This document shows, in pieces, positions 4,692-47,397 of a stretch of 47,491 nucleotides of DNA. The notes below the pieces were generated by a model. The model worked only from the letters and a program-made list of their open reading frames with translations. It made no database searches and was not told the origin of the DNA. The stretch covers positions 1 to 47,491 of the forward strand of contig JAHFQV010000019.1 of assembly GCA_023259175.1 (NCBI GenBank). Direction: 5' to 3'. Both the position numbers and the translations under genes were made by a program. Every line of letters begins with the position of its first letter. Position 1 is the stretch's first letter. This DNA comes from Oxalobacteraceae bacterium. GTDB lineage: Bacteria; Pseudomonadota; Gammaproteobacteria; Burkholderiales; Burkholderiaceae_D.

Positions 4692-4894
4692 ATGAAACGA
4701 ACATCACCCAATTTTTTCAAAAAAATGCGATACGACGAGCCAAATCGAACAAACAAGTAAAACTTTGCGAGGAAGCGCGTAAAGGGTGAGAAGCGAGAAA
4801 TTTGGCGACTAATACCGAAATTTTAAACTGCAATTCTACCGCAAGCACTTTGCCTGTGAAGCGTATCTGTAATTGATCGAAAATAGCGCCTCCA

Positions 4895-5509
4895 TCATTT
4901 GCCACCCGGGTAGATCGCCTTATATTTTTCCGGTACTTCAACTGGCTTCAGGCTACCTGCGAGCGATAGCACGATAAGCAAGGCGATCACACTGCCGAGT
5001 AGTATGGGAAGTGTGATCGCGAGCTTGCGTGCGACATTGGACTTGGCCTGCCAATAGAGCGCGCAGCCCAGGTGGGTGAAGAGCGCGAGGACTGCGAAAA
5101 AATAGTAAGGCGCGAAGAAGAACTGGTAGGGATGTACATGGAAACCGGCGGCGGCAAAATAGAAATTGGTGTCTAGATTGAACACTGTCCGACCGAATAA
5201 AATAGCACTGACATGGGCGAGCAAAAAGAAGCCTAGGTAAGCGCCCGCAATCGCTTGTAACCAAGCTATTCGTCCCCGTCGCTGCGTCCAAGCGCTAACA
5301 ACTAAGCGCAAGCCGCTGACGACTTGGATGGCGACACAAAAAAGAAGTAGGACCTCGATAGCAGGCTGGCGGTAGATGCCACGCGCGACTTCCATGAAGG
5401 TAATGTGCGATGCAACACTGGACAAGGATGCTAGGTGATTAGCGAGATGAACGATGGCAAACGCGGTAATGAGAATGGCTGATGTACGATGTAGCGTGCG
5501 GAGTGTCAT
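4895..5509 (-). CDS. Membrane protein resembling the succinate dehydrogenase/fumarate reductase cytochrome b anchor
   Basis: The 204-residue product from the ATG at 5507-5509 begins with LHRTSAILITAFAIVHLANH and has five hydrophobic helices (also AIEVLLLFCVAIQVVSGLRLVV, WLQAIAGAYLGFFLLAHVSAILF, FAPYYFFAVLALFTHLGCALYW, and a C-terminal helix). Histidines lie inside the first, third and fourth helices, as in haem-b membrane anchors. A longer frame to 5623 is open, but its first codon sits almost on top of its only Shine-Dalgarno-like sequence. It follows the DUF4153 gene on the same strand. No dehydrogenase subunit is nearby, so the fold similarity need not mean succinate oxidation. Confidence 0.7.
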   Translation of the reverse strand: MTLRTLHRTSAILITAFAIVHLANHLASLSSVASHITFMEVARGIYRQPAIEVLLLFCVAIQVVSGLRLVVSAWTQRRGRIAWLQAIAGAYLGFFLLAHVSAILFGRTVFNLDTNFYFAAAGFHVHPYQFFFAPYYFFAVLALFTHLGCALYWQAKSNVARKLAITLPILLGSVIALLIVLSLAGSLKPVEVPEKYKAIYPGGK

Positions 5510-5641
5510 ATAGAAAATCTCGGTTGAATCTTCATTTTCATTGGGTGAAACTGCGGTGCTTGGTGAGCGTTCGCGTATCCGGTGTTTTTCTTCAATCAAT
5601 ATGAAGATTCTCGTCGCCCTCATTCTCCTCGGACATCGCGT

Positions 5642-7519
5642 TTAGCGTTGAGCAGGCGGACAATTGCCTTGATTACGATTCGTTTTCCCTAGCATATTCA
5701 CCTGATAGGCTAAGTACTGATTTACCGAGATTTGTTGTTCGCCGATTTGAATATCATCGACGTAAGTTCTGGTTGCATGAAAGTGACCCGCTTGTAATTG
5801 TTTGCGTAGCGTTTCACATCCGGCGATATCGTTGGGGAGGTTGGCGAGTAAGGTCCAAATGCCTTGGGGGTCTTCTATATACACCGCGCTGCCAGATTTG
5901 GGTTCTCGTCCTATTAGGATGATTTCGGGTTTTGAATCGTGGGTGAGATCGAGCAAATACGCATCGCAAATCGCGTTTTTATGATCCAAGCATTGCACGC
6001 TTTCCCAAGCATCATGCTCCTTGCTAATCTGCTGCAAAAATGCAGGCGGAATAAGCGCGCTGTTGGGCCAAATTTGGATATTGGCTTTTATATCTGCTTC
6101 GGCCAACACGGGTATCGCTTGTGCCCAACGATTTTTCGACTGGAGTGCCACGCTTGCTTTGCTGCGTATGATGGCAGCATCTTTGCCTTCTGTACGATTT
6201 TGCAGTTGTTGTAAGGCCTCCTTGCCATAGCGTCCGCCCTCGAAACGAAGGTAGGTATAGTCAAACTGATCTGCACTGACCTGACCCGAGTTGAGGCGGT
6301 TTAATTGGTTGGAGACGGCTATTCTGGCAGGGTCAGCGATTGGTGAAAAGAGTGCGATCAGTACGCCCAAAATGAGAAAAGCGGTCCAGACGTTGACCTT
6401 AGCAATGCCCGGCATCCACTGCCGACTTGAAATAGCGGCCCAGCCATAACCAAGGGTATAAAAAATCGCCACACATAAACAGGCTGCGGCTATCACTCTA
6501 TCGCTGCTCCAGCCATATTCTCGCACCCGTAAAACCAAAGCGATCACCGCAATCGTGCTGATTGGTAACAACAAACAAGCAGCGATTCGCGCGCTGAGTC
6601 GCAAGAGCCAGGCAATGCTTGTGCTGACCTCACCATTTTGAAAAGCCGCATTAATCAGAACGATCAATACCCCGGCGCTACTCAATAAAACAGCGGTCGC
6701 ATGTCGGGTGGCCCACAAGGGCTGCAAACCTGTTCCGATCAAACTAAGCAAGAATCCACCGACGATCAAGACGGCTACTGGCAAAATCCAAGACATCAAA
6801 ACTAATAATAATCCTCGGATTCCCCGCACAATCGCAGGGCGCACGTCGGTGATATGCATGGCGCATGAAAACGAAAATGCCGATACAGGAATCAGGAACC
6901 ATGATTCATCAAGAAGATCGTTGAGAAAATTAAGTTTGACGAGCATAAATAAGGCTGCCCCCAACCGAAGAACCAAGAACAGTGCAATCACAAACAGCGC
7001 AGAAAACTTCATCTGTATCAGTAGTTTCCAAGCGAGTTCAAAATGGGTGGGATAGCTGGCGATGCGACGTTGATCCTGCGCCGATGCAAGCAAAAAACTG
7101 TGCGCAATAAAGCAGCCCGCAATGCTGAAAAAAATTAATAGGGCAGACGGAAAGATCGTCTTTTCAAGTTCCTTGGGTGATCCACTCCATGAATTTTCCA
7201 AGCCGTTTCCGCGCCACACATCATGCATGGATAGACCCGCGATGACGATGACATATAAGACCATCCACGGCCATAAATGGCTAGGCTTTAGGTGACCTAG
7301 GGCGGTGATTAGTAAGACCGGTAGCAGCACGAATACTAATAACATGGGCGCAAAAAGCAAGGGCTCGTTGGCGGGCCATTGATGGCTTTTGCTGGTCTCA
7401 TACAGGAAATATAGAACAGCTCCTTGCACTAGTCCGATCAACATTCTGCTCATGCCGATTTTATGATTAACTTCTGATTGCGGCATGAGGTTTTGTTCGC
7501 TTTGTTCTTGCGATTGCAT
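5642..7519 (-). CDS. DUF4153-type polytopic membrane protein
   Basis: A 625-residue protein with about twelve hydrophobic helices in the first ~400 residues, followed by a soluble C-terminal part of about 220 residues. The membrane portion matches my memory of DUF4153 proteins: long alternating hydrophobic segments, the loop SMHDVWRGNGLENSWSGS, and a conserved VRPAIVRGIRGLLLVLMSWILPVA region. The C-terminal part contains DQFDYTYLRFEGGRYGKEAL, also typical. The ATG at 7517-7519 is preceded by GGGAG at good distance. The family's function is unknown. The downstream anchor-like gene starts within 150 bp on the same strand, so they may be cotranscribed. Confidence 0.8.
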   Translation of the reverse strand: MQSQEQSEQNLMPQSEVNHKIGMSRMLIGLVQGAVLYFLYETSKSHQWPANEPLLFAPMLLVFVLLPVLLITALGHLKPSHLWPWMVLYVIVIAGLSMHDVWRGNGLENSWSGSPKELEKTIFPSALLIFFSIAGCFIAHSFLLASAQDQRRIASYPTHFELAWKLLIQMKFSALFVIALFLVLRLGAALFMLVKLNFLNDLLDESWFLIPVSAFSFSCAMHITDVRPAIVRGIRGLLLVLMSWILPVAVLIVGGFLLSLIGTGLQPLWATRHATAVLLSSAGVLIVLINAAFQNGEVSTSIAWLLRLSARIAACLLLPISTIAVIALVLRVREYGWSSDRVIAAACLCVAIFYTLGYGWAAISSRQWMPGIAKVNVWTAFLILGVLIALFSPIADPARIAVSNQLNRLNSGQVSADQFDYTYLRFEGGRYGKEALQQLQNRTEGKDAAIIRSKASVALQSKNRWAQAIPVLAEADIKANIQIWPNSALIPPAFLQQISKEHDAWESVQCLDHKNAICDAYLLDLTHDSKPEIILIGREPKSGSAVYIEDPQGIWTLLANLPNDIAGCETLRKQLQAGHFHATRTYVDDIQIGEQQISVNQYLAYQVNMLGKTNRNQGNCPPAQR

Positions 7520-40400: not shown

Positions 40401-42104
40401 ATGCGCCAGCTTAACCCCGTTTATATTGCCGTTCTCATGCTGCTGCAATCGCTTAGCAGCTACGCACAAACTGCACCCCTCATCGCGCAATCAAAGCAAG
40501 AAATCGCGCCTCAGAATTTGGCGCAGCAAATGGATCAAATGGCGGCTTCCTATTACAATAATACTGAGCCAGGCGCGACGGTGATAGTAAGCAAAGGAGG
40601 TCAAACGCTATTTCGCAAAGCCTATGGTATGGCCGACATGCACGCTAAACGCGCGATGCGGCCGGAGGATGTGATGCGCTTGGGTTCGATTACCAAACAG
40701 TTCACTGCAGTGAGTATTTTGATGTTGGTGGACGAGGGGAAATTGGCGCTGAGCGATACGGTGCAGAGTGTCTTTTCCGACTACCCAGAGAGCGGGAAAA
40801 AAATCACGATAGAACACTTGTTGACCCACACCTCGGGTATTCCCAGCTATACCAGCAAGCCGGGATTTTCTGCGATGGTAGCGAAGGATGTCAGTGTTGC
40901 GGAGATGGTCGCAAGCTTTAAAAACGACGCTTTGGAGTTTGAGCCTGGCAGCCGCTATCAATACAGTAATTCCGGCTATTTCCTTCTAGGTGCCATCATC
41001 GAAAAAATAAGTGGTGAGAGCTACGCAAAATTCATTGAGAAGCGTTTGTTTTTACCTCTAGGAATGAAACAGACTGCCTACGAAGGATATGAGCGTAGCG
41101 AGCAAACACAGGCGGTGGGGCATACCGCGAATGCGACTGGATTTGAAGCAAGCAAAGCCATTAGTATGAGTCTGCCTTACGCCGCAGGTTCTTTACGTTC
41201 GACCGTCGATGATCTGGTGAAGTGGGATGCCGCGATCAGTGCAGGAATGCTGTTAAAGCCAGCAACTTGGAAGCGGGCCTTTAGCGATTATGTGATGAGC
41301 AATGGGCAGGGCGCGCATTATGGCTATGGCTGGAGCTTGGGGCAATTAGAGGGTAGTCCGATGATCGCGCATGGTGGTGGTATTAATGGTTTCTCGACCT
41401 TTGCTTTACGTTTGCCCAATGAAAAAATCTATGTCGCTGTACTCACCAATTCGGATAGTGGAATCGCGCGTCCAGAGGTGTTGGCAAGCCGTTTAGCCGC
41501 TAGCGCAATAGGTAAAACGATTCCAGAATTTAGCCCGCTCAAGCTAGATGAAAAAGTACTCGATCAATTTGTCGGCGTATATAAAATCGATGGCGATAAT
41601 CGGCGCATGTTTGTTCGTGAGGGCGATAAATTGATCATGACACGCACCAATGGTCCGCGCACAGTGTTGCAGGCGTATGCGCCGAATGCGTTTTTTGTTG
41701 ATCGCCAGTCTTTATTGCGAGTTGAATTTAAGCGCAATGAAAAAGGGGAAGTGAGTGACGCGCTTGTGCATCAAAACGGAAGCTCGATTAGTCACCCGCG
41801 CACTACTGAGGCCTTACCTGCAGCACCTGTGACAGTCAAAATTTCGAACGAGCTGTTTGATCGCTATGTTGGGAAGTATCAAATCGCCCCCAATTTTATA
41901 TTAGAGCTTAGCCGCGATGGTGATCGTTTTCTGACACAGGCAACTGGTCAAGCCAGTGTGGAGATTGTCGCATTGTCCGAGACTACGTTTCTCGCGGCGA
42001 GCATCCCGGCTCAATTGCGTTTTGATCGAGATCTTGAAGGTAAAGTGACTCAAGTAGTTTTGCTGCAAGGCGGGCGTGAAGTACCCGCTAAACGGATACC
42101 CTAA
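40401..42104 (+). CDS. Exported serine hydrolase, beta-lactamase class C/esterase family
   Basis: The 567-residue protein has a signal peptide (VYIAVLMLLQSLSSYAQT) and a beta-lactamase-type domain with the three expected motifs: S96-ITK (nucleophile and general base), Y188-SN and H324-GGG in place of KTG. Such proteins are usually esterases, D-amino-acid peptidases or penicillin-binding-like enzymes rather than resistance enzymes. After about residue 380 come two related beta regions (LDQFVGVYKIDGDNRRMF; FDRYVGKYQIAPNFILEL), each beginning with the VGxY motif common to C-terminal DUF3471-like domains. Periplasmic location is inferred. Confidence 0.92.
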   Translation: MRQLNPVYIAVLMLLQSLSSYAQTAPLIAQSKQEIAPQNLAQQMDQMAASYYNNTEPGATVIVSKGGQTLFRKAYGMADMHAKRAMRPEDVMRLGSITKQFTAVSILMLVDEGKLALSDTVQSVFSDYPESGKKITIEHLLTHTSGIPSYTSKPGFSAMVAKDVSVAEMVASFKNDALEFEPGSRYQYSNSGYFLLGAIIEKISGESYAKFIEKRLFLPLGMKQTAYEGYERSEQTQAVGHTANATGFEASKAISMSLPYAAGSLRSTVDDLVKWDAAISAGMLLKPATWKRAFSDYVMSNGQGAHYGYGWSLGQLEGSPMIAHGGGINGFSTFALRLPNEKIYVAVLTNSDSGIARPEVLASRLAASAIGKTIPEFSPLKLDEKVLDQFVGVYKIDGDNRRMFVREGDKLIMTRTNGPRTVLQAYAPNAFFVDRQSLLRVEFKRNEKGEVSDALVHQNGSSISHPRTTEALPAAPVTVKISNELFDRYVGKYQIAPNFILELSRDGDRFLTQATGQASVEIVALSETTFLAASIPAQLRFDRDLEGKVTQVVLLQGGREVPAKRIP

Positions 42105-42581: not shown

Positions 42582-43703
42582 CTAGTACAGCAGAAAATAA
42601 ACACCGACACCGAGCGCAAGCAAATTAGTGCTAGGGATGAGGAATCGATCGCGCCACTGCGTTTTAAAAGACGCGTGAAAAAAGCCTGGTAAGTATCTTT
42701 GCGTTGCCATGTAAAAAAGGCTGAGCGAACTGAGAAAAAAGAGCTGTCCGATTTCTATGCCGGCATTAAATCCAAGCAAACTCCAAACTCGATACTGTGT
42801 ATTGAGACCGATGGCGCTCAGGCTAGCAGCGAATCCTAAGCCATGCAGTAGGCCGAAAGAAAATACGACGAACAGACGCCAGCGCGTCTTCTGTTTTCCT
42901 GGCCAGCGTTGGATCAATAAATTCAGGCAAGCCATGATGATGATGCTGATCGCAATCGCGCTTTCTATCCATCGTGGATTGAAGTGAACGAGTTCAAGTA
43001 AAGCCGCAATTAAGCTAAGGCTATGTGCCACGGTGAATGCACCCGTGAGTAATAGTCCTTGTCGCCAATTGTTGATGATGCAGAGTATCGTCAATAGGAA
43101 AGCCAAGTGATCCCAACCGCTCAGAATATGCTGCACACCAATGACGATGTAGTCCCCGAGTACTTGCCCGCTGCTGCGAAAGAAATGGTGTTGTGCATGC
43201 TGGGGTGTGAGCATGACGACTTCAGTTTCGTCTCCCCGTATCGCTTTCATGGTGAGCTGCATTTGATCAGGGCGGGTGCCGAAAAAAGTGCTGCGCAGAT
43301 GAAGTGCTTGCGGTTCTTTCGGGAAGGATATTTTAATTAGGGCGAGAAAACTCCATGTGCCCATATCCTCGCTATTTGCTATCTGTCCGCTATGGCTGGC
43401 ATCGCTCTCCGCATTAATCTGTATGAAATCAATATTGCCTTGCGTGTCTCCATCCCAGAGTTGGAGTCGTGCACTGACTTGTTCTGCGATGGCTTGTTGA
43501 TAAATTGAAGCTTCTTGGGTGGATAAACGGCCATCTCGATTTGCGTCGCCAATGGTCAGCCCAGAAGCGGGTAGGGCGACTGCCACAAAAGCCGATTTCC
43601 CCTGAATATTGATGCTGCCCTGTTGTGCTGGCATCAAATGCGCAAAGCAGAGCTGTGCGCAAGCTAAGCTGAGGACAAGGAATAGTGTGTGAAGTGGTTT
43701 CAT
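42582..43703 (-). CDS. HupE/UreJ-family membrane protein with exported N-terminal domain
   Basis: The 373-residue protein begins with a signal peptide (LFLVLSLACAQLCFA). The N-terminal soluble region of ~150 residues contains an EF-hand-like loop, D53-A-N-R-D-G-R-L-S-T-Q-E64. The membrane part carries the family motif IVIGVQHILSGWDHLAFLLTIL and later FGLLHGLGFAASL, with conserved His and Asp in helices. Six to seven helices follow. HupE/UreJ proteins are linked to nickel uptake for hydrogenase and urease, but the related long type with an N-terminal domain occurs without these enzymes, as here. The metal is unknown. No strong ribosome-binding site is seen. Confidence 0.85.
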   Translation of the reverse strand: MKPLHTLFLVLSLACAQLCFAHLMPAQQGSINIQGKSAFVAVALPASGLTIGDANRDGRLSTQEASIYQQAIAEQVSARLQLWDGDTQGNIDFIQINAESDASHSGQIANSEDMGTWSFLALIKISFPKEPQALHLRSTFFGTRPDQMQLTMKAIRGDETEVVMLTPQHAQHHFFRSSGQVLGDYIVIGVQHILSGWDHLAFLLTILCIINNWRQGLLLTGAFTVAHSLSLIAALLELVHFNPRWIESAIAISIIIMACLNLLIQRWPGKQKTRWRLFVVFSFGLLHGLGFAASLSAIGLNTQYRVWSLLGFNAGIEIGQLFFLSSLSLFYMATQRYLPGFFHASFKTQWRDRFLIPSTNLLALGVGVYFLLY

Positions 43704-44040
43704 AAAAAAGCTGTGAAAATTTTCTTGTTTTGCGAGTTAGGATGGGCTATACCAGTTCAAACGGGTCTGAAAATTTTGGCTAAAGCACGGCGCAACAATT
43801 GCAGCATCCGTTTTTGGAAGAACGATTCAGGCCTAGGATGCCAAAGCAATGTGTAGGAATAATGAATCGGATGCGTCAATTCAACCCATGATGTAAGCAA
43901 ATGTAAGTCTCTATTTTCTTCACATTTTCTTCATATTCAATCAGTAAAATTTATTGGAACAAAACTTGTGCTCTTTGCTCGTGGTGACGAGCTTGTGTAG
44001 TGCTTTTTCAATGATGAGAATGATGAAAATGAGGATTGAA
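43704..44040. other. Divergent intergenic region with a small hairpin
   Basis: About 340 bp. GCTCGT-GGTG-ACGAGC forms a perfect 6-bp stem at 43977-43992 in the expected leader of the lipoprotein gene, followed by a loose T tract (GTAGTGCTTTTT). An ORF could extend from 43954 into the lipoprotein, but the lipobox and AGGATT spacing favour the ATG at 44041. A candidate -10 TAAAAT at 43945 has no well-spaced -35. Confidence 0.4.
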
Positions 44041-47000
44041 ATGAAAAACAAGACACCTAATTTAGCATTCACTTTGCTCTGTTGCCTACCCCTATTATCT
44101 GGGTGTGGCGGCAGCACATCGTCGAATTTGCCGACCTTGTTAGCGGCAGCGCCAGCACCAGCACCCATTTCCAGCTCCGCCAGTTTTAAGTTTCCGCGCT
44201 CAAATTACAGTATCGTAAAAAATGCCAATCAGGTCACGGTGACCGATCTTGTGGGGAGTACCGGGACACAAAAATTCACCGATGCCAGTCAGCTCAATTT
44301 TAGTGATATGAGAATACACCTCGGGGTGGGTGATCTGGCGCAAAAAATTAGCGAGACTCAGCTGCAATCCATCATCGAGTTGTATATCGCCTTTTTTAAT
44401 CGCAGCCCGGATGCGGAAGGAATGGCTTATTGGATCGGTATGCTGTTAAACGGCACTAGCTTGGAAAAAATCGCGGAGAGTTTTTATGCGGCAGGCAAAC
44501 TCTATCCGCAACTTACCGGATATTCCGATGCCATGAGTGCGCAAGATTTTGTCCGCGTGATTTATAAAAATGTCTTAGGACGAACCGGTGCCAGCGCCCC
44601 CTCCGATAGCGAAGTGAACTATTGGGCGCAGGATTTGATATCGGGGCGCTCGACTAAAGCGTCGCTTATCAATGCTATGTTGGTTTCGGCTAGGACGTTT
44701 GCGAAAGACCCGACTTATGGCTGGGTGACAACGCTCTTGAATAATAAGCTCAATGTGGGGCGCTTTATCGCGGTGGAACAGGGTATTAGTTATTTGAGCG
44801 ATGATGAGAATATTACGAAATCGAGCGCCATTATGGCGGCGGTGAGTCAAACCGATACCAGTAAAGCCTTGTCATTAGTTGGCTGGGCTCAAGATGGATT
44901 TTCTTTGTTGGCCAGTCGAGCGGAACTCCCCACCGTGCTTGCATTGGGAAAAGGAGATGGGGTCTTGAGCATCGCGTTTCAAGCTGGACAAGTGCAAAGT
45001 GGCGCTAGTGGCGATATTGGTGTCATTGATGCCTATGTCGCCAACTGTAGCGGTGCCGGTAAGATGAGTACGGTTGCCGGTGCGGTAAGCCCTCTTTTGC
45101 TCTCAGGTCTGAGTAATGGTGTGCAGTACGTCTGCACCGTGAGCGCACGTAGCGGCGTGTTGATCGGCACTGCGTCGGCACCCGTTAGCGGAACGCCCTC
45201 AAGTTTCGCGCCGGTGAGCACTTTTGACGGCAGTATCGTGCTCGCTGCGCCTACCCAAGATGCGGTGACCGCCAATCTCTTATCAAACCAGGTCAAGCAA
45301 AACGTCGCCATTTCTTATGGACGCACTTCGGGTACCTACGAGAAAAAAACAGCAGTCAAAGAACTGCCGGCTGGCGTGCCGACTGAGATACTTATCGATG
45401 GGCTCGCAGCAGACGCAGCGTATTTTTATCGCTTACACTTTTTGAATAGCCAAAATGTGGAGCTCGCGACCAGTGCCGAATATCGTTTCCACACGGCGCG
45501 CGCGAGCGGTTCCAGTTTTAGCTTTACGATACAAGGCGACTCTCATCCTGAACGGGCGAATGAATTTAATAGCGCACTCTACCAGCGCACCTTGCAAACC
45601 GTGTCCGCCGATCAGGCCGATTTTCATATTAGTCTGGGGGATGATTTTAGCGTGGACATGTTAAATCCCGCGACCGTCACCCAGGCGCAAGTGATAGAAC
45701 GCTATAGCTTGCAGCGACCTTACTTGGGCTTGGTCGGACGCAACGCTGCGGTGTTTTTAGTCAATGGAAATCACGAGCAATCGGCCGGCTATTTATTAAA
45801 CGGAAGTGCGGATAATGTTGCGGTGTGGGCGCAAAATGCGCGCAATGCCTATTATTCTCAGCCCGAGCCCAATGCTTTTTACGGTGGTAATACGCAGAGC
45901 ATTCCGTATATTGGCCTACCACGCAATTACTATTCCTGGACTTGGGGTGATGCCTTATTTGTCGCCATCGATCCGTATTTACCTTCGCCGGTTCCACTTG
46001 CAACGATTTTTGGGAATGCCGCGCTCAACACTGACATCTGGGCAGTTACCCATGGTGATGCGCAGTACCAATGGTTAAAATCGACATTGGAACAGAGTAA
46101 GGCAAAATATAAATTCGTCTTTGCCCATCACGTCATGGGTGCGAACCGAGGCGGCGTCGAGATCGCCTCATTGGCAGAGTGGGGCGGCATGAATAAAAAT
46201 GGCGTGAATGAATTTAGCCAAAAGCGCGCTAACTGGAGTTTGCCAATACATCAGCTCATGGTGGCAAATAAAGTCACTGCTTTTTTTCAAGGGCATGATC
46301 ATGTGTGGGTGCGCCAACAGCTCGATGGCATTACCTATCAAACCCTATCAGAGCCGGCCAATCCGAATTACAACTACTCCGAATTTTCCTCTGCATTTTT
46401 ATCCGGCGATAAATTTCCCAACTCGGGCTATACGCGTGTCAATGTCTCAGCTACAAGCGTAAAAGTCGAGTATGTTCGCAGCTACCTAGCTGCCGATGAA
46501 GGGGTAGGAAAAGTGCACGGCAGCGTCGCTGCGAGTTACTTCCTAACGCCCACCAGTGCAGGGGGTGCGGTGAGTGGCACGAGCTCAACGCAAGGCGTGG
46601 GTTGCAACGTCAATTATTCTGGATTTAATAGTAGCGCCAAGGTGAACGCCAATAGCGTATATAGCTGGAGCTGCAACGACAGCAAACGCATCCTCACTGG
46701 TAACGGAATCCCCGATCATGCCGTGACCACTGGCAGCTTTGCCACCGCGATGTCTAGCCAATCGATCAATCAGAGCATGCCCATCGCCCCGGTGACATCG
46801 AGCAAAACAGCCACCACTATCATAGGCTATGCCACCAATAGCGTGAAGTTCGATCCTGCCACCGCCGGGTCTTGTACTTCGAGCGCGACCTCGACCATGA
46901 ATGGTGGTGGCTGTGTCATGGTGGGGGGGAGCGGCCCTTGGATATTAGAAGCCATAGGCGGCGCCTTTGTGTTTGGGACTGACGAGAGTAACGCCCATGT

Positions 47001-47397
47001 GCAGCCGAATGGACAATATCATTATCACGGCATGCCGGAAGGAATTTTAAGCAAACTCAACCAGGGCAAAGCGATGAGCTTGGTGGGTTTTGCCGTCGAT
47101 GGCTTCCCTATTTACGGGCGCTATGGCTACATCGATGCCAATAATAGCAATTCGGGAATCAAGGTATTAAGCTCGAGCTACCGAAAAAAAGCGAGCGCCG
47201 ATGCAGGGCGGCCAGCAACTAGCATTTTCCCCATGGGCACCTTTACGCCCGATTATGAATATGTGGCGGGCTTAGGTGATTTGGACGAATGCAATGGGCG
47301 CGTCGGTGTCACGCCAGAATTCCCAAAAGGGATTTACTACTACATGATCACCGATTCATTCCCCTACATACAGCGCTGTATTAAGGGAGTTAAATAG
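44041..47397 (+). CDS. Multidomain lipoprotein: DUF4214, FN3-like, metallophosphoesterase and YHYH segments
   Basis: From ATG 44041 (AGGA seven bases before) the product is 1118 residues. LLSGC is a good lipobox, so it is probably lipid-anchored. Residues ~108-230 carry a DUF4214-type helical domain (IIELYIAFFNRSPDAEGMAYWIGML; FVRVIYKNVLGRTG). An FN3-like segment (~295-390) and a purple-acid-phosphatase-like N domain (~402-480) follow. The metallophosphoesterase core has FTIQGDSHPER near 496, SLGDDFS, VNGNHEQS, FAHHVMG and QGHDHVWVRQ near 751, so all metal-ligand motifs are present. The C-terminal ~250 residues hold a YHYH domain (GQYHYHGMPEGIL near 992; GFAVDGFPIYGRYGY). The YHYH function is unknown. 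The combination is unusual; a cell-surface phosphatase is the best guess. Confidence 0.88.
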   Translation: MKNKTPNLAFTLLCCLPLLSGCGGSTSSNLPTLLAAAPAPAPISSSASFKFPRSNYSIVKNANQVTVTDLVGSTGTQKFTDASQLNFSDMRIHLGVGDLAQKISETQLQSIIELYIAFFNRSPDAEGMAYWIGMLLNGTSLEKIAESFYAAGKLYPQLTGYSDAMSAQDFVRVIYKNVLGRTGASAPSDSEVNYWAQDLISGRSTKASLINAMLVSARTFAKDPTYGWVTTLLNNKLNVGRFIAVEQGISYLSDDENITKSSAIMAAVSQTDTSKALSLVGWAQDGFSLLASRAELPTVLALGKGDGVLSIAFQAGQVQSGASGDIGVIDAYVANCSGAGKMSTVAGAVSPLLLSGLSNGVQYVCTVSARSGVLIGTASAPVSGTPSSFAPVSTFDGSIVLAAPTQDAVTANLLSNQVKQNVAISYGRTSGTYEKKTAVKELPAGVPTEILIDGLAADAAYFYRLHFLNSQNVELATSAEYRFHTARASGSSFSFTIQGDSHPERANEFNSALYQRTLQTVSADQADFHISLGDDFSVDMLNPATVTQAQVIERYSLQRPYLGLVGRNAAVFLVNGNHEQSAGYLLNGSADNVAVWAQNARNAYYSQPEPNAFYGGNTQSIPYIGLPRNYYSWTWGDALFVAIDPYLPSPVPLATIFGNAALNTDIWAVTHGDAQYQWLKSTLEQSKAKYKFVFAHHVMGANRGGVEIASLAEWGGMNKNGVNEFSQKRANWSLPIHQLMVANKVTAFFQGHDHVWVRQQLDGITYQTLSEPANPNYNYSEFSSAFLSGDKFPNSGYTRVNVSATSVKVEYVRSYLAADEGVGKVHGSVAASYFLTPTSAGGAVSGTSSTQGVGCNVNYSGFNSSAKVNANSVYSWSCNDSKRILTGNGIPDHAVTTGSFATAMSSQSINQSMPIAPVTSSKTATTIIGYATNSVKFDPATAGSCTSSATSTMNGGGCVMVGGSGPWILEAIGGAFVFGTDESNAHVQPNGQYHYHGMPEGILSKLNQGKAMSLVGFAVDGFPIYGRYGYIDANNSNSGIKVLSSSYRKKASADAGRPATSIFPMGTFTPDYEYVAGLGDLDECNGRVGVTPEFPKGIYYYMITDSFPYIQRCIKGVK

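Follow-up and report, generated by a model that had tools for sequence, protein, structure and literature searches.

A rare fusion of a metallophosphoesterase with a YHYH domain, of single origin and in a gene setting that points to metals

How a calcineurin-like metallophosphoesterase (MPE), a DUF4214 module and a YHYH domain came to stand in one reading frame, and what a protein so composed might do, are the questions raised by one end of the window, by which is meant the whole stretch of 47,491 nucleotides analysed from a draft contig of an Oxalobacteraceae bacterium. The gene coding for the fusion (44041-47397, + strand) is a single unbroken frame of 1118 amino acids; the open frame spans from a TTG at 43954 to the stop at 47397 and the ATG start at 44041 is preceded by GAGGA, 5 bases upstream. 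Its unusual domain order is accounted for by the fusion of known families, and its gene setting is one that points to metals.

A first-pass annotation of this DNA had put the three domains in one frame behind a lipobox and all three names hold by Pfam over the respective cut-offs: DUF4214 (PF13946) with 57 bits against 23.2, in two stretches, Metallophos (PF00149) with 27.3 bits against 21.5 over residues 494-755, and YHYH (PF14240) with 222 bits against 25 over residues 913-1116, which cover profile positions 4-193 of 193 and include the motif GQYHYHG. The lipobox is also there (LSGC, Cys22), and judging from the sequence the product is probably an exported lipoprotein of the outer membrane. 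From Pfam, sequence and model together the order from N- to C-terminus is lipobox, DUF4214, fn3-like domains, MPE and YHYH (Table 1). The full-length AlphaFold model (mean predicted local distance difference test, pLDDT, 77; predicted template modelling score, pTM, 0.51; 52-row alignment) begins with a disordered leader (1-44), followed by the helical DUF4214, a pair of beta domains, the MPE at 493-835 and YHYH at 857-1112. The fn3-like leader that had been proposed is thus matched by two beta domains in the model and by Foldseek, but by sequence both Pfam scores in that region are below cut-off (fn3 17.9 against 25 bits, PAP-N 15.7 against 30). The second of these domains resembles the N-terminal domain of purple acid phosphatases (PAPs), with Foldseek giving both fn3 and PAP/PhoD matches.

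The fusion is real, rare and of single origin. The same full-length architecture is present at L025 of U. nitidum (74% identity), which alone of the 36 loci retrieved matched over the full length, and at L077 of genome G176, and no sign of a frameshift or of joined genes was seen. That two genes were run together through sequencing or assembly error is practically out of the question; nothing was found for such a join beyond the position of the window at the end of a draft contig, whereas three genomes have the architecture at 69-75% identity and the fused sequences form one clade both in the MPE tree (100/99) and in the YHYH tree (100/99). An assembly artefact was accordingly rejected, the two further genomes having the same architecture. 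A DUF4214-MPE without YHYH (L082) branches as sister to the fused MPEs; it comes from genome G359 of the same genus, which also has, on another contig, a DUF4214-type-YHYH gene beside a HupE gene (L083). Since G359 holds both unfused halves and the fused forms are single clades, the two halves occur separately within the genus and a single event joined them. Judged by these relatives, the window would belong to the genus Undibacterium. The MPE itself was found in 7 of 385 genomes of the family, only two of which, those of the window and G176, have the fusion. In the order sample of 399 genomes only the window's genome and G475 had the MPE at E <= 1e-60, the G475 gene being at a contig edge with no YHYH visible within 7.2 kb, and in the class sample of 369 genomes the window's genome was alone at E <= 1e-30.

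What has been kept with the fusion is a divergent HupE gene, one of several features that the first-pass annotation overlooked, together with the separate-gene forms and the clusters of MPE, PEBP and two-component genes described below. HupE adjoins the fusion in all three genomes. From 35 kb on, the window shares only the HupE and fusion genes with L025 or L077, which have many flanking genes in common with each other, and because no other window gene in that part is shared the HupE-fusion pair can be regarded as the unit that is kept. The window HupE has a predicted mature N-terminal His (AH), an EF-hand-like loop and an H-x5-DH membrane motif. Of 37 subtype-I loci, which come from Gemmatimonadota, Myxococcota and Pseudomonadota, 32 (that of the window among them) have a HupE-type gene immediately next to YHYH, at a distance of no more than about 250 bases; the count includes two loci with the N-terminal domain only (L053, L054) and two cut by a contig end (L035, L045), takes L039 and L089 as one gene and counts the near-identical L055 and L056 as two misses. 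PF13795 was confirmed in all nine HupE neighbours scanned besides that of the window, and a Deinococcus plasmid carries the same YHYH-HupE pair.

When 392 genomes of the family were scanned, 17 proved to carry YHYH, with 20 genes in all. The surroundings of 19 of these genes were examined, one G288 gene lying outside this set. A metal-type partner was next door in 17 of the 19: HupE in seven (window, L077, L083, L084, L086, L087, L088), a small secreted protein, p195, in six (L076, L078, L079, L080, L090, L091) and SCO1/SenC in four (L085, L092, L093, L095; PF02630, 63-74 bits). None of the three was beside YHYH in L089 and L094, where HupE and p195 were looked for by search and SCO1 by eye. 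SCO1 serves cytochrome oxidase as a copper chaperone. In HupE a His comes first after the predicted signal peptide, with its putative cleavage site, in 27/27 rows (AH), and in p195 an invariant His occupies the same N-terminal place in 8/8. The N-terminal His is all that p195 and the HupE periplasmic domain have in common; homology of the two was rejected (hhalign probability 6%, 81 columns from the signal peptide on). As a separate observation, the YHYH genes of the four SCO1 loci are of a third subtype, each followed directly by SCO1/SenC (4/4).

N-terminal-His HupE domains were described as anglerases in PMC12537917, passages of which report that they bind Cu and Ni, with a Cu Kd of 62-74 nM, and that metallophosphatases are frequent neighbours of Ang-2, an actinobacterial HupE form. 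The window HupE resembles the HupE/UreJ-2 anglerases Ang-1 and Ang-2 described there in being a PF13795 protein with a predicted mature N-terminal His, and resembles Ang-2 also in having a metallophosphatase as neighbour. It differs in that the periplasmic domain of window-type HupE has the EF-hand-like loop and no convincing match to a solved structure; no sequence match of the N-domain to a solved anglerase was found, the traits of Ang-1 being the N-terminal His, Cu/Ni binding and an Ig-like fold. YHYH has 0 occurrences in the main text of that paper. Links of YHYH with HupE and with MPE were not met in searches of the open-access PMC literature, and a YHYH-SCO1 link was not met there, no search having paired those two terms.

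Several further observations were made on these genes. The EF-hand-like loop is near-invariant (D-x-[DN]-x-D-G-x-[LF]-S-x-x-E) and the profile of the HupE periplasmic domain weakly matches calmodulins (E 0.002). Stand-alone HupE N-terminal 'AHLM' domains without a permease directly follow YHYH in L053 (6915-7556) and L054 (2033-2551), and L058 (5761-7994) has two different YHYH genes in tandem and then one HupE gene. A serine beta-lactamase-like gene, recognised by eye, lies at 40401-42104 of the window and relatives of it are near YHYH in L057 and L090, perhaps by coincidence, given how common such genes are.

YHYH occurs in bacteria, phages, giant viruses and diatoms. It was termed enigmatic in PMC7824862, where a hydrolase with a Zn site made up of a His triad plus an Asp is predicted for phage tails; metal binding by YHYH as such is therefore not a new idea. 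No experimentally defined role was given in the literature passages on YHYH that were compared. The C-terminal part of the fusion is a full-length match to the family profile, and what sets it apart is its place behind DUF4214 and MPE. The first-pass view that YHYH domains normally make up separate small proteins needs correcting: some follow an N-terminal part of DUF4214 type, as in L083 and L089 (judged by similarity to the window), and others are joined to PEBP, in L076 together with DUF4214 and in L080 without it (by Pfam). In an alignment of 38 rows the invariant columns include H893, H986, H994, H996, D981 and D1020, and hhalign relates subtype II to subtype I (98.4%, E 4.8e-15) in an alignment that matches up the conserved His and Asp positions. 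The model of the domain has a pLDDT of 83 and a pTM of 0.84. Neither sequence nor fold search yielded a solved structure (Foldseek against the PDB, best E 1.7) and hence no mechanism can be read from the fold. A fold search of BFVD gave 12 hits with E <= 0.001, the strongest at 6.5e-13, the named ones including phage structural and baseplate proteins. The YHYH proteins of cyanophages and giant viruses thus have the same fold in BFVD, with the difference that they are viral and that several are named as structural.

The MPE half belongs to the calcineurin-like phosphoesterases by its PF00149 profile match and by its metal-ligand motifs. These had been reported as intact, rightly so: D500-S-H502, G-D534, N577-H578, H696 and H752-D-H754, in which the numbered residues are the expected metal ligands, are invariant columns in 25/25 aligned MPEs. 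The assignment to the purple-acid-phosphatase type fared less well. Foldseek with the middle part of the model gave PhoD (2yeq) as the best match (E 1.4e-14), with plant PAPs and the wheat purple acid phytase also found, and the PhoD/PAP matches extend over about 500-630 columns. The hallmarks of PAPs are a DxG first motif and the tyrosine of GDxxY. Membership was rejected on these motifs, the first motif being DSH and the PAP tyrosine absent in 25/25 rows, where GDDFS (15/25) or GDTFM (10/25) stands instead. With DSH rather than DxG and no PAP tyrosine, the MPE is therefore PAP/PhoD-like in fold without being a PAP. Nor does it reach the PhoD family PF09423 (15.4 bits against a cut-off of 27), although the fold matches 2yeq. 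What it has in common with PhoD and the PAPs (2yeq, 6gj9, 1kbp) is the fold of the fn3-like leader and MPE domain; it differs from them in the DxH first motif, the missing tyrosine, the low PhoD score and the extra domains. PhoD and the plant purple acid phosphatases and phytase release phosphate.

Outside the fusion, relatives of the MPE were found in nine tandem clusters (L026, L027, L028, L076, L078, L079, L080, L081 and the Chloroflexota plasmid L110). By best score seven of these consist of an A-type followed by a B-type MPE, L110 has an A/D-type and then a B-type, and L081 has types C and D. An OmpR-type response regulator and/or histidine kinase was in or near the run in 8/9, with L027 showing a kinase only, at the edge of the stretch covered, and L081 having its two-component genes up to 4.4 kb off; L080 is the cluster without such a system. 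A PEBP-YHYH gene was present in 7/9, the L026 copy being cut by the contig end. MPE and YHYH are thus connected in two ways, as neighbours in the case of subtype II and as one protein in that of subtype I. A two-component pair also lies in L084 beside a subtype-I YHYH-HupE pair and therefore links the MPE-cluster and YHYH-HupE settings. As side observations, L080 has a putative ECF (extracytoplasmic function) sigma factor and anti-sigma gene, recognised by eye (4887-5773), in place of the two-component system; four MPE clusters carry an exported family, 'MSDQAQLHTIAF...LAFLTG', with sub-threshold LTXXQ/Metal_resist matches only; and on Loktanella plasmids L114 and L116 the order YHYH - PEBP - PEBP-like - YHYH is annotated as four separate adjacent genes, PEBP-YHYH being fused in relatives of the window.

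The hupE and fusion genes share one intergenic region, in which a direct repeat might be a site for a response regulator, as ten-base direct repeats suit regulators of the OmpR/PhoB type. The sequence YGTAAGCRAWYGTAA precedes 3/3 fusions and the two-component system of L079 and occurs at no other place in 101 loci, some of which repeat the same place; in the window, where a single mismatch was tolerated, it was matched once as against 0.03 times expected. The looser YGTAA-N5-YGTAA also precedes the two-component system of L076, which with L079 makes 2/9 MPE clusters, and is in none of the other MPE clusters among the 21 loci searched. These loci (375,759 bases) have 8 copies against 2.9 expected under a uniform model, 5/8 of them in promoters of interest and the rest in L077, L079 and L081 away from those promoters.

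Table 1. Positions of features of the fusion locus (window coordinates unless a locus is named)
Feature	Position	Strand	Basis or remark
Divergent HupE/UreJ_2 gene	42582..43703	-	Pfam PF13795, 140 bits against cut-off 24.5; alignment
Intergenic region shared by hupE and fusion	43704..44040		Repeats TGTAAGCAAATGTAAG, TTCTTCACATTTTCTTCATA; blocks kept in three genomes (alignment)
Direct repeat YGTAA-N5-YGTAA, possible response-regulator site	43892..43906	+	
Lipoprotein signal peptide, lipobox LSGC	44041..44103	+	Cys22 codon 44104-44106; predicted from sequence only
DUF4214 helical module, residues ~95-280	44323..44880	+	Pfam PF13946; helices in AlphaFold model
Two fn3-like beta domains, residues ~298-371 and ~382-484	44932..45492	+	Sub-threshold Pfam, model strands, Foldseek
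MPE catalytic domain, residues ~493-835	45517..46545	+	Pfam PF00149, invariant columns, Foldseek
YHYH domain and short linker	46549..47394	+	Pfam part 46777-47388; 38-row alignment; model
Exported family 'MSDQAQLHTIAF...LAFLTG', copies in MPE clusters	L110 7275-8861; L081 13065-14351; L027 3769-5103; L026 1793-3466		

The reading favoured here, tentatively and at somewhat under an even chance, is that of an exported phosphatase tied by one fusion to a transition-metal-handling YHYH domain that works with the HupE permease. It builds on the domains, the intact motifs, the single origin of the fusion and the gene linkage, which were observed directly, and would add to these the location, metal binding by YHYH, metal transfer, the direction of coupling, the substrate and copper as first candidate. 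A PhoD/PAP-like binuclear metallophosphoesterase would have been joined to YHYH on an exported, probably outer-membrane lipoprotein, in a single fusion of an A-type MPE, elsewhere found in clusters of two-component system, MPE-A, MPE-B and PEBP-YHYH, with the YHYH of a YHYH-HupE pair. YHYH would bind a transition metal outside the inner membrane, most likely copper, with nickel or zinc next, and serve the adjoining permease, whose N-terminal-His domain would take up the metal. The MPE would cut phosphoesters at the same place, and so might either free metal from phosphorylated chelators or use metal supplied by YHYH. Metal binding by YHYH, which the first-pass annotation had put forward as a possibility, is made more likely by the company it keeps, namely HupE, SCO1, the N-terminal-His secreted protein and a heavy-metal-like two-component system, the last with scores below cut-off. 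In all five regulators and all five kinases scanned, four pairs from MPE clusters (L026, L076, L078, L081) and one from the YHYH-HupE locus L084, heavy-metal models of NCBIfam (TIGR01387/TIGR01386) scored best, with 198-250 bits against cut-offs of 279-293.

A number of observations weigh against this reading, the shortfall of those scores among them. RppA, MtrA and PhoB models come closely behind the heavy-metal model for the cluster regulators, that of the phosphate regulator PhoB just 10-42 bits lower where listed, and in the window's genome nothing was clearly orthologous to the kinase of the clusters (30% at best). HupE was neither annotated nor detected beside YHYH in the subtype-I loci L039 (= L089), L051 and L055-L057, or in five more distant Rhodobacterales plasmid matches, which either adjoin PEBP genes (two Loktanella records) or have no evident partner. 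In the stretches covered L110 has PEBP without YHYH and L081 has neither, which means that the MPE can stand without YHYH; the genome of L081, G069, is absent from the YHYH-positive genomes of the family scan. The association of the two across the family (YHYH in 6/7 MPE-carrying genomes vs 17/392 overall; Fisher 1.9e-8, or 3.8e-7 leaving out the window's genome) speaks for the reading, with the caveat that the Fisher value overstates independence because the MPE genomes are mostly of one genus and the scans covered 392 and 385 genomes respectively. Lastly, the clusters of L076 and L079 adjoin a PHO4/Pit phosphate transporter (by Pfam in L076, by an 87% identical gene in L079).

This transporter and the PhoB scores would suit the main rival, possible although rather unlikely, in which the protein is an exported phosphatase for phosphorus scavenging, YHYH and DUF4214 bind just substrate, glycan or the cell surface, and HupE is incidental. 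The nearest folds of the MPE, those of PhoD and the plant PAPs and phytase, agree with it, as do the phage structural and baseplate proteins among the BFVD matches and the listing, in passages of PMC7029224, of phage structural-protein YHYH among carbohydrate-binding and host-recognition domains. It does not account for HupE being kept beside the fusion in 3/3 genomes when L025 and L077 have no further gene in common with the window from 35 kb on, nor for the HupE genes of 32/37 subtype-I loci and the SCO1 and N-terminal-His proteins that accompany YHYH elsewhere. Those recurrent partners, which resemble metal carriers and not wall enzymes, also speak against a bifunctional enzyme in which YHYH is itself a metal-dependent hydrolase that shares a single phospho-glycan or envelope polymer with the MPE as substrate. 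The Zn site of a His triad plus Asp and the hydrolase role predicted in PMC7824862 would be in keeping with such an enzyme, and so would the invariant His and Asp residues that align with those of subtype II, but no known hydrolase fold was matched and the proposal seems quite improbable.

A bolder form of the favoured metal-handling reading, which must be called doubtful, would make YHYH an exported capture domain, probably for copper, in several metal gene sets (HupE, SCO1, N-terminal-His proteins), with the phosphatase stripping phosphate from metal-chelating organophosphates and the freed metal passing via YHYH to HupE; if true, this would be phosphatase-driven metal acquisition. For YHYH, a domain of unknown role, it is the gene company that points towards transition metals and the fusion that ties this to a phosphatase. 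The value of the finding is that it gives YHYH a testable role, in the metal binding of one soluble domain and the phosphatase activity of the other.

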